Virus record (IMG/VR): IMGVR_UViG_3300030104_005078
Location: 1 to 20,259 of that record
Length of the DNA stretch: 20,259 nucleotides
Reading direction: 5' to 3' (one strand)
Origin: a virus
Shown: positions 3,405 through 16,448 of the stretch, piece by piece
Numbering within the stretch: position 1 is the stretch's first letter
Layout of the letters: every line of letters starts with the position of its first letter
Translations under genes and position numbers: made by a program
Notes under the pieces: generated by a model
Seen by the model: only the letters and a program-made list of their open reading frames with translations
Database searches by the model: none
What the model was told of the DNA's origin: nothing

Positions 3405-3427
3405 TGCTTATATTTAACTTAATAAAT

Positions 3428-3454
3428 AAAGGAGTGTACAAAATGAACCCATAA
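3428..3454 (+). other. Three-codon mini-ORF with strong ribosome-binding site
   Basis: AAAGGAG (3428-3434) is followed eight bases later by ATG-AAC-CCA and then TAA at 3452-3454. The ribosome-binding site is among the best in the window, yet the frame ends after Met-Asn-Pro. It lies between the membrane-peptide gene and the terminator at 3482-3513. It may be a leader or ribosome-parking element, or a gene start left behind after a deletion. Confidence 0.4.
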
Positions 3455-3481
3455 AATAGACTATTACCTTTCTTATTATAG

Positions 3482-3513
3482 AGCCTCACGCTTGAAGCTG
3501 TGGGGCTTTTTTT
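3482..3513 (+). terminator. Rho-independent terminator of second early operon
   Basis: AGCCTCAC (3482-3489) pairs with GTGGGGCT (3500-3507) with one T-G pair, and an inner GCT/AGC pairing extends the stem to about eleven pairs with a small loop. Seven Ts (3507-3513) follow. It marks the end of the rightward early genes. Read leftward there is no T-run, so it should not stop leftward transcription. Confidence 0.9.
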
Positions 3514-3680
3514 ATTGCTTCTTATTGATATTCTGGGGCTAGTTTACAAGCCTATTGAATTAGCTTTTAAATGACTAGTTATAAGGCTTTTAGAGGTTCA
3601 TATTGTTCGCTAGGGGTATATCAAACAAGCCTTTAAAATTTCGTTAACTAGTCTATAAAATGTCGGCCAAGTTTCCCATG

Positions 3681-3737
3681 CGTGTGGGCGTGCGATTGCC
3701 CCTAATAATAATCGGGTACACCCGAAATATACCCACG
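3681..3737. repeat. GC-rich inverted-repeat block with alternative pairings
   Basis: GTGGG (3684-3688) can pair with CCCAC (3732-3736), enclosing a perfect hairpin TCGGGT-AC-ACCCGA (3712-3725). The same GGG at 3686-3688 can instead pair within GGGC (3686-3689) and GCCC (3698-3701). The two pairings exclude each other. The block is far more GC-rich than its surroundings. It could be a structured RNA, a protein-binding site or part of an origin. Confidence 0.45.
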
Positions 3738-3812
3738 TTAAAACCTAAAATTCTTTGGATTTTCTATTGAAAGTCTTTTTGAGGAATACCCTAAATTTCC
3801 CTATGCGATAAG

Positions 3813-3888
3813 TGTAATTATCGTACATGATAATTGTAATTATCGTACGTTAACTGTAATTATCGTTAGTAATATCCGTAATTAGTCA
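3813..3888. repeat. Phased TGTAATTATCGT repeat array (iteron- or operator-like)
   Basis: TGTAATTATCGTAC occurs at 3813-3826 and again at 3835-3848. TGTAATTATCGT recurs at 3855-3866, and a degenerate copy (GTAATTA core) begins at 3877. Start-to-start spacings are 22, 20 and 22 bases, about two helical turns, which puts all copies on one face of the helix. Two palindromes are built in: CGATAA/TTATCG (3806-3811 and 3818-3823), and GTAC..GATAATT (3823-3835) against AATTATCGTAC (3838-3848). Such arrays bind replication initiators or repressors. Confidence 0.65.
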
Positions 3889-3933
3889 TCTAGCTAGTAT
3901 TTAGTAAGTTATTGAAATATATATATTTTTAGG

Positions 3934-3957
3934 GGGTCACTAGGGTCACCCGGGGTG
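3934..3957. repeat. Tandem GGGTCAC repeat with CACCC/GGGTG dyad
   Basis: GGGTCAC occurs at 3934-3940 and 3943-3949, nine bases apart. The second copy runs into CACCCGGGGTG (3947-3957), an inverted repeat. It lies in the gene-free region in front of the leftward promoter. It could be a binding site or a stem in a leftward transcript. Confidence 0.4.
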
Positions 3958-4062
3958 GTATGGTAATCTGTATACAAAGTGAATAGAATTTTACCAGAAA
4001 TAGGCCATAAACTAGTTGGGTAATCGCTTGATTTAAGGGGTAACCTTATAAATAGATGTAAG

Positions 4063-4077
4063 CCCCCGGGTAGGGGG
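4063..4077 (-). other. G/C hairpin at the predicted 5' end of a leftward transcript
   Basis: CCCCC (4063-4067) and GGGGG (4073-4077) flank a five-base loop. The predicted leftward start site is at about 4079, so this hairpin would form within the first few nucleotides of that RNA. A 5'-terminal hairpin often protects small RNAs from decay. That role here is inference. Confidence 0.4.
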
Positions 4078-4085
4078 TACTTCCT

Positions 4086-4113
4086 ATTATACACCTGTGT
4101 ACCAATTTGTCAA
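4086..4113 (-). promoter_or_regulatory. Leftward consensus sigma70-type promoter
   Basis: On the minus strand TTGACA (4113-4108) is followed by 16 bases ending in GTG and then TATAAT (4091-4086). Both hexamers are perfect, and the spacer length and GTG ending match the two rightward promoters. Predicted start is at about 4079. No coding frame follows: the only long minus-strand frame begins at 4094, upstream of the start site. It is arranged back to back with the rightward promoter; the two -35 elements form an inverted repeat CTTGACAA (4107-4114 and 4143-4150) across a 28-base A/T-rich spacer. Confidence 0.75.
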
Positions 4114-4143
4114 GTAAAAAATAATTTTTTTAATAGAAAAAGC

Positions 4144-4171
4144 TTGACAACTAGTAAATACCGTGTATAAT
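4144..4171 (+). promoter_or_regulatory. Rightward consensus promoter for the late operon
   Basis: TTGACA (4144-4149), a 16-base spacer ending in GTG, and TATAAT (4166-4171). The predicted start is near 4178, within AAAGGGAG (4177-4184), a stretch also found after the promoter at 16421-16448. The A/T-rich block upstream (4115-4142) could act as an UP element for this and the divergent leftward promoter. The first gene starts at 4280, leaving a leader of about 100 bases. Confidence 0.9.
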
Positions 4172-4227
4172 ATAATAAAGGGAGTACAAAACAAGCACAT
4201 ACTTCATCACTTTAATTAGTAGAACAA

Positions 4228-4279
4228 AAAGGGAGATATGGTGCAGTCTGTACTAAGTAATCTCTAGAGGAGAAAATTA
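4228..4279 (+). promoter_or_regulatory. Late-operon leader: hairpin with a nine-codon mini-ORF
   Basis: AAAAGGGAG (4227-4235) precedes ATG 4238 and an in-frame GTG 4241. The frame MVQSVLSNL ends with TAG at 4265-4267, inside the ribosome-binding site AGAGGAG (4266-4272) of the first late gene. GGAGAT (4232-4237) pairs with ATCTCT (4260-4265), and GTGCA with TGTAC inside the loop, so the mini-ORF start lies in a hairpin. The arrangement fits a translational leader coupling to the gene at 4280. Expression of the mini-ORF is not proven. Confidence 0.4.
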
Positions 4280-4534
4280 ATGAATAAAGATAAGATAAAA
4301 AAACTTGTTTCAAGTTTACAAGGTGGAACTGGAGGTAGAACTGTATCTGCTCAAGATATAGCAGCTGCATTCAAGTTTGCATCAGGTAAGGGTAAAAGTC
4401 TATCTGATAAAGATTTTAAAGAAGCTCTTAGAAAGATGATGGGTAAACCAGTACAAAAAAAAGGTAGTCCCCATTTAAAAAAAGGTGGAAAAGCTAAAAA
4501 AATGAAAACCTATAAAAAAGGTGGAAAAGCCTAG
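4280..4534 (+). CDS. 84-residue basic protein with C-terminal GGK motifs
   Basis: First gene of the late operon, with AGAGGAG seven bases before the ATG. The N-terminal 50 residues form helices with a Gly-rich turn (SLQGGTGGR, about 12-20). From residue 56 on the protein is Lys/Gly-rich and carries two KKGGKA copies (about 67-72 and 79-84), the second being the C-terminus. The last codons run GGTGGAAAAGCCTAGTG, where the stop overlaps the GTG start of the terminase small subunit, so the motif may also help ribosome loading for that gene. No family is recognised. The basic tail suggests nucleic-acid contact, and the position just before terminase suggests a packaging-related role; both are inference. 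Confidence 0.65.
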   Translation: MNKDKIKKLVSSLQGGTGGRTVSAQDIAAAFKFASGKGKSLSDKDFKEALRKMMGKPVQKKGSPHLKKGGKAKKMKTYKKGGKA

Positions 4535-4944
4535 TGCATTTACTTCCCCAAAAACAGAAATCTAAAAAAGAACTAACAGAAAAACAAGAAGTATTTGTTA
4601 GTTCCCTTATTGAGAACGGTGGAAGTATACCACAAGCTATGAAAAAAGCAGGGTATGAACCTACTTCACGTTCTTGGTTAGTAAATTCGGTTTCTAACGA
4701 AATAGTAGAACGAACACAGAACTACTTAGCAACCCACGGAATGAAAGCCGCACAGAATTTAATCAATGCATTAGATGAAGACGGAACAACGCCGAAGGGT
4801 GAACTGCGTTTAAAAGCAGCAGAAAGTTTATTAAATAGAATTGGCATAGGCTCTAGAGAGACAGTAGACCATAACGTAACAGCTATACATGGTGTAGTAT
4901 TGTTACCTAATAAAGAAAAAGAGATAATAGTAGAGGATGCCTAA
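4534..4944 (+). CDS. terS: Terminase small subunit (TerS)
   Basis: The 136-residue protein contains LTEKQEVFVSSLIENGGSIP followed by QAMKKAGY (about 14-41), the classic N-terminal helix-turn-helix of phage terminase small subunits ('LT.kQ..Fv..yl..g.n...A...AGY'). The middle (MKAAQNLINALDEDG..TPKGELRLKAAESLLNRIG) matches the family's oligomerisation helices. It recognises phage DNA at the packaging site and recruits the large subunit. It starts at a GTG in a TAGTG overlap and ends overlapping the next ATG by 8 bases. The large subunit lies 356 bases downstream, as expected. Length is at the short end for TerS but complete. Confidence 0.8.
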   Translation: MHLLPQKQKSKKELTEKQEVFVSSLIENGGSIPQAMKKAGYEPTSRSWLVNSVSNEIVERTQNYLATHGMKAAQNLINALDEDGTTPKGELRLKAAESLLNRIGIGSRETVDHNVTAIHGVVLLPNKEKEIIVEDA

Positions 4945-5128
4945 ACCCTTTATAACAACAAAAAGCCCACAATTTCATACTTGGATACGAGAAAAATTTA
5001 ATGAAGAACCATCAGAACTTAAACCCCAACAATTACATAACAAATTTATAGTTTATTTAGCATGGAGAAAAGCACAACCACCCAAGACACAAGAAAAACA
5101 TCAACAATACCATTCGGATATAAATTAG
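4937..5128 (+). CDS. 63-residue hypothetical protein between TerS and TerL
   Basis: The start at ATG 4937 overlaps the end of terS and follows AGAGG within it. The sequence contains TTKSPQFHTWIREKFNEEPS and LKPQQLHNKFIVYLAWRK (about 29-45), a helical, Trp-containing pattern typical of small conserved phage genes. The last 67 bases overlap the next frame. The C-terminal 15 residues (after PPKTQEK) look low in information, so the real product could continue into the next frame by a -1 shift; no classical slippery heptamer is seen. Function unknown. Confidence 0.55.
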   Translation: MPKPFITTKSPQFHTWIREKFNEEPSELKPQQLHNKFIVYLAWRKAQPPKTQEKHQQYHSDIN

Positions 5129-16152: not shown

Positions 16153-16424
16153 TGGTAGCAAAAAAATATCAAAATCCTAAAGGTGGATTAAACGAAGCAG
16201 GCCGTAAACATTTTGAAAGAAAAGATGGTGGTAATTTAAAAGCACCAGTGCCTAAAGGAACAAATCCCCGAAGAATATCTTTTGCTGCAAGATTTGCAGG
16301 TATGAAAGGCCCAATGAAAGATTCAAAGGGCAGACCTACAAGAAAAGCATTAGCACTTAAAGCTTGGGGTTTTGGAAGCGTTAGTGCGGCATCTAAATTC
16401 TGCCAAACTCATAAAAAATCTTGA
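16152..16424 (+). CDS. DUF6321-like 90-residue protein
   Basis: Contains GGLNEAGRKHFERKDGGNLK (about 11-30), AARFAGMKGPMKDSKGRPTR (46-65) and KALALKAWGFGS (66-77). This is the conserved core of the small family I know as DUF6321 ('GGLn.kGR...n...G.nLk.PV......PRR.SFaaRf.gm.GPm.d..GkPTR.alALkaWgfgs...A..F'), seen in phages and prophages beside head and tail genes. Function is not established. It starts in a TAATG overlap, and its stop codon lies inside the -35 element of the promoter at 16421. Confidence 0.75.
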   Translation: MVAKKYQNPKGGLNEAGRKHFERKDGGNLKAPVPKGTNPRRISFAARFAGMKGPMKDSKGRPTRKALALKAWGFGSVSAASKFCQTHKKS

Positions 16425-16448
16425 CAAAACAACGATTTAGTGTATAAT
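16421..16448 (+). promoter_or_regulatory. Second consensus late promoter (neck, tail and fibre genes)
   Basis: TTGACA (16421-16426), 16 bases ending in GTG, TATAAT (16443-16448), then AT-AT-AAAGGGAG. Both hexamers, spacer length, the GTG and the AAAGGGAG block repeat the promoter at 4144-4171. The predicted start is near 16455, only about eight bases before the ATG at 16463. The -35 overlaps the stop of the upstream gene. It would boost the neck, tail-hub and fibre genes independently of the main late transcript. Confidence 0.9.

Follow-up and report, generated by a model that had tools for sequence, protein, structure and literature searches.

The window (here the whole stretch of viral DNA that was analysed, 20,259 nt) derives, judging from the proteins it encodes, from an HMO-2011-type marine podovirus. 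Homologous TerL, capsid and portal proteins are present together with the conserved modules of that group; TerL is 47-57% identical to the proteins of HMO-2011-type isolates over most of its length, with module types shared, and the closest isolate by TerL is Pelagibacter phage HTVC115P (52% identity). A host link to Winogradskyella was discarded, the sole match being an unusable 60-aa TerL fragment on a short MAG contig. G001, a near-identical relative with 100% identity over the region, is apparently complete (56,949 nt on record, flanked by 99-nt end repeats), and its leftward gene block lies ~7.6 kb to the left of the region, the intervening genes being rightward. The leftward promoter described below thus faces convergent genes. 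The features of the region, in window coordinates, are as follows.

3480..3509, plus strand: intrinsic terminator at the end of the rightward genes on the left.
3806..3884, no strand assigned: degenerate array of CGATAATTACAGTTATCG-like dyads, whose copy number differs among close relatives.
3909..4094, minus strand: leftward ORF of 61 aa, rejected as a gene.
3915..4011, minus strand: E2, a single-copy conserved element of the ATTGCATAC..GTAT..CCCCCC.GTG.CCC type; relatives have it beyond their terminator or cargo genes.
3960..4080, minus strand: predicted untranslated leftward RNA, its first 121 nt, which give no fold signal apart from the 5' hairpin.
4063..4077, minus strand: hairpin CCCCC-UACCC-GGGGG at the 5' end of the predicted leftward RNA; it does not vary within the close clade and has no compensatory changes.
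4086..4113, minus strand: leftward sigma-70 promoter, TTGACA-16-TATAAT, a 12/12 match conserved across the group.
4114..4143, no strand assigned: A/T-rich spacer separating the -35 boxes, by its composition a possible shared UP element.
4144..4171, plus strand: rightward (late) sigma-70 promoter, TTGACA-16-TATAAT, perfect and conserved together with the leftward promoter.
4178..4254, plus strand: long hairpin in the 5' leader of the late transcript, in which 4183-4188 would pair with 4249-4254 and 4195-4198 with 4241-4244, with inner stems to 4235.
4280..4534, plus strand: first late ORF, 84 aa, with no assigned function.
4534..4944, plus strand: terminase small subunit (phrog_51).

Left of these features, the plus-strand sequence at 3426-3450, AATAAAGGAGTGTACAAAATG, is similar to the start of the late leader, AATAAAGGGAGTACAAAA (4174-4191), and is followed by a 3-codon ORF and a terminator.

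The perfect minus-strand promoter of the original prediction is indeed present, and the pattern TTGACA-N16-18-TATAAT occurs three times in the window vs 0.01 expected, a count that 0/100 shuffles reach. The third copy lies at 16421-16448 (+) in the late region, just before a 376-aa ORF, and is also found in L001 and L024. The back-to-back layout with the late promoter, which had been read as a sign of joint control, likewise stands; the inverted CTTGACAA repeat formed by the two -35 boxes is no separate evidence for such control, since any two back-to-back -35 boxes yield it.

To lessen selection bias, 70 distinct relatives were recruited through the neighbouring conserved element E2 rather than through the promoter itself. 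With at most one mismatch allowed, the leftward promoter was found in 62 of them (44 perfect) vs 0/70 shuffles, a figure somewhat favoured and not fully independent, because loci with the promoter had served as seeds for the E2 model. L329 and L304, both counted among the failures, do have the promoter, which inserted genes push beyond the scanned distance. Across the group the hexamers of the divergent pair are intact while the spacer sequences are unrelated, and the cultured pelagiphages HTVC115P, HTVC104P and HTVC033P carry the pair as well. Retention in 62/70 relatives vs 0/70 shuffles argues that the leftward promoter is under selection and functional, and it very likely drives synthesis of a minus-strand RNA. 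A recurrent CTAGTTTAC / CTAGTTAAC motif, a possible operator, is scattered over 3530-4160 of the window and in relatives, both between the genes and within the spacer of the late promoter.

Left of the promoter, the repeat array that had been described from the window was recovered, as were the GGGTCAC repeats, at 3934-3940 and 3943-3949. E2 combines a small inverted repeat, a run of C (or G) and GTGACCC repeats ~9-10 bp apart, and it occurs once per genome wherever the whole record was searched. It is probably a protein-binding DNA site, whether origin, pac or regulatory.

Transcription from the leftward promoter would be expected to start at ~4078-4080. The sole leftward ORF there, of 61 aa, starts upstream of that site, is broken by stops or frameshifts in 11/11 close relatives and has no family match; its rejection leaves the window clade free of leftward genes, as the original prediction had held for the window. 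The original prediction had also foreseen a CCCCC/GGGGG hairpin, which is present, and no clear leftward terminator. Indeed, none was found within 300 nt in the window or its closest relatives, bar weak ones in L013 and L016. An oop-like small RNA would have its own promoter, which the window provides, and an intrinsic terminator shortly downstream, which it does not. Because the genes on the left read rightward and nothing occupies the slot behind the promoter, the leftward promoter should yield only non-coding RNA in the window clade; as that clade is without a terminator, this may be a long antisense RNA.

The idea that this RNA is structured did not survive. Its first 121 nt fold like shuffled sequence (z -0.25), and an alignment of 12 close relatives showed no compensatory change and only four pairs, all invariant and within the 5' hairpin. 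When matched arms were compared with permuted ones across clade representatives, 5,032/20,000 permutations were as good for the long-range arms and 14,889/20,000 for the 5' hairpin. A near-start hairpin is common among relatives and enriched over shuffles, an enrichment that we trace to a run of pyrimidines preceding a run of purines. On the shuffles and the matched-arm test we reject a structured leftward RNA. A suggested antisense role to the early genes fared no better, complementarity to phage gene starts being not above shuffles. No Rfam family was matched at gathering score; a mir-1902 hit fell far below threshold. As a separate observation, a dyad centred on the expected leftward start, within the first ~16 nt after the -10, is seen in many relatives (L034, L065, L239, L329) with differing sequences (GGG-TAAT-CCC, AAAGG-TAAG-CCTTT, AAGAGT-TA-ACTCTT); it is enriched over shuffles (z 5.6), although the sequences compared are related.

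What lies behind the leftward promoter varies by clade on the TerL tree: a terminator, small genes, or neither. Strong leftward intrinsic terminators were found in 14/58 non-redundant loci, all of them 77-111 nt after the -10, compared with 0/58 for the rightward leader, 0/58 for the opposite strand and 1/58 for shuffled sequence. The terminator-bearing loci form two deep clades, that of HTVC115P and that of L339, L350, L066 and L078, which differ in the sequence and the pairing register of the terminator hairpin; the linker from the 5' motif to the terminator varies in both length and sequence. The discrete leftward RNA envisaged at the outset is thus supported, as a short RNA, in two clades other than that of the window. 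In the HTVC115P clade a leftward operon begins ~505 nt from the leftward promoter; outside it the left neighbours are mostly rightward, several such cases falling in the L339/L350 clade.

In one further TerL-tree clade small leftward genes sit between the promoter and E2, a distribution that takes two changes. These are pepA (a 40-aa basic peptide) and pepB (60 aa), and in L329/L330 a 2OG-Fe(II) oxygenase at 4152-4947 (-) (PF13640, 5e-15) stands in tandem with pepA behind the leftward promoter. L327 and L335 hold apparent remnants of such cargo genes. It had been allowed from the start that relatives might carry a leftward gene that is merely degraded in this genome; degraded genes do occur, in the sister clade only, and no trace of cargo genes was found in the window or its clade. 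The window clade and the L034/L239 clade have neither terminator nor cargo genes. Members of the cargo-gene clade (L038, L072, L327, L329) also show GTAATA-n-ATTAC dyads, in 1-3 copies, behind the leftward leader.

The conserved structured RNA of the region is the rightward late leader, not the leftward RNA, as a strongly positive test shows. In the close clade conservation is high at the promoters and along 4175-4249, the untranslated rightward leader. In distant clades the leader folds into a single long hairpin, whose layout stays constant while its sequences are unrelated. An alignment-free measure of this helix, pairing nt 3-30 with nt 58-105 after the -10, gave a mean z of -2.38 over 48 loci, 29 of them below -2, whereas the controls stayed near zero (-0.04 for the leftward RNA, +0.19 for the next 110 nt, -0.11 for the reverse strand). 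Matched arms averaged -15.5 vs -10.0 kcal/mol for mismatched arms, and 0/20,000 permutations were as good; these figures leave out 10 HTVC115P-clade loci, in which a coding start lies close behind the promoter, a decision made after seeing the sequences. Compensatory changes were found both across clades and within one sub-clade, where their pair count exceeds shuffled and slid controls. A covariance model of that sub-clade retrieves L072 and L071, then L055, at the same position; it does not recognise the leader of the window or its clade on the plus strand. The window's own leader is only slightly more stable than shuffles (z -0.98), and in its clade the closing helix and the inner arms are invariant, so that it is assigned to the structured class by its closing helix and its position. 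The conserved ~80-nt hairpin is absent from Rfam.

Our preferred explanation, which we consider reasonably probable, is a divergent control region heading the late genes, in which the leftward promoter is kept for regional control and the rightward message carries a conserved hairpin. Two perfect host-type (sigma-70) promoters would fire back to back over a shared A/T-rich spacer, the rightward one giving a late mRNA that opens with the ~80-nt hairpin and the leftward one a leader RNA that is not translated and starts with a small hairpin. The leftward unit of relatives would stop at a terminator after ~70-105 nt or carry small cargo genes before E2; in the HTVC115P clade it would lie ~500 nt upstream of the leftward operon, and in the window it would be an empty cargo slot. 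Promoter conservation, terminators, cargo genes, layouts and rightward helix covariation were all seen directly, and it is from these that we infer the making of the RNAs, the position of the leftward 3' end in the window and every function proposed here. Most likely the leftward promoter is kept for control, as a leader or attenuated promoter or for transcription towards E2 beside the late promoter, rather than for a folded trans-acting RNA.

That last possibility, a true trans-acting small RNA of ~70-105 nt with regulatory or host-directed functions, as the terminator-bearing relatives might make, strikes us as unlikely. It would account for the narrow placing of the terminators in two deep clades despite their different hairpin sequences, for the frequent near-start 5' hairpin, and for the stand-alone look of the RNA in the L339/L350 clade, where several left neighbours point rightward. 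However, the leftward RNA shows neither compensatory change nor complementarity to phage gene starts above shuffles, the linker between 5' motif and terminator is variable, and the window clade has no terminator at all.

We also doubt that the leftward promoter serves to make mRNA of moron-like cargo genes and has lost its gene in the window lineage. Such a history would explain why pepA, pepB and the oxygenase immediately follow the promoter in one clade and why sister loci hold decayed copies, but leftward genes are confined to that clade, the window clade shows no gene trace, and the promoter stays perfect in clades without genes, unlike a pure relic.

The late leader itself could stabilise the mRNA, regulate translation or act in antitermination; for the last there is no positive support, since no strong plus-strand terminator was seen inside the late genes of the window. 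A bolder version, which we regard as rather unlikely, makes the leader an undescribed class of cis-acting RNA controlling the whole late operon, for example by put-like antitermination or as a protein-sensing switch, with a decoy or leader RNA from the divergent leftward promoter as its partner. If true, a new late-operon cis-acting RNA would belong to a marine phage group that ranks among the most abundant.

Less plausible is a role in replication, in which the leftward RNA would prime synthesis or open an origin at E2 and the repeat array. The single-copy conserved E2 and the A/T-rich, repeat-bearing DNA that follows a strong promoter fit such a role, and the GC-skew minimum of HTVC115P adjoins the region. 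In G001, however, the minimum falls at the gene divergence ~7 kb away, so the skew follows gene strand, and in the terminator clades the leftward RNA ends before E2, which speaks against the primer that had been suggested. Least of all do we credit a genome end or packaging site (cos/pac) with an incidental promoter: the region lies directly upstream of the terminase genes and E2 has its spaced GTGACCC repeats, but contig ends do not cluster at E2 and the complete relative, a contig with 99-nt end repeats, reads straight through it, two facts that bear on cos and not on headful pac.

HMO-2011-type phages are reported to be dominant and widespread in the ocean (PMC9038755), and the text of the genome survey of this group contains no occurrence of promoter, intergenic or non-coding (PMC9038755). 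A literature search, mostly without subscription papers, found no description of this control region or of HMO-2011-type gene control. The present analysis offers a map for that control, with divergent promoters, a clade-variable leftward unit, the conserved element E2 and a late leader fold that is not in Rfam. Moreover, the cultured phages HTVC115P and HTVC033P carry the promoter pair, which opens its transcription to direct testing.

Several well-known phage RNAs invite comparison. The pRNA of phi29 scaffolds the packaging motor of a phage that lacks TerS. It too is a phage RNA encoded near packaging functions and closed by a 5'/3' helix, but here there is an ordinary TerS/TerL pair and no Rfam match. 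The oop RNA of lambda is a short leftward RNA with its own sigma-70 promoter, directed against rightward genes in the immunity and origin region. The leftward RNA of some relatives likewise would end at an intrinsic terminator, at <110 nt, although no antisense target was found, the window clade is without the terminator, and the site precedes the terminase genes. The lambda pR' late leader, from which 6S RNA is made and on which Q antitermination acts, combines a strong promoter, a short transcript and an intrinsic terminator. The HTVC115P-clade terminator, placed between promoter and leftward operon, recalls this arrangement, but it belongs to the leftward unit and not to the late leader, and no antiterminator gene was identified. 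The put RNA of HK022, with two adjacent stem-loops, acts on RNA polymerase for terminator read-through, and ompA-type hairpins at the very 5' end stabilise mRNA. Unlike put, the rightward leader would form one long hairpin whose loop is large and A/U-rich; in its predicted fold it resembles put and the ompA-type hairpins as a folded RNA right at the 5' end, here of a long phage transcript.
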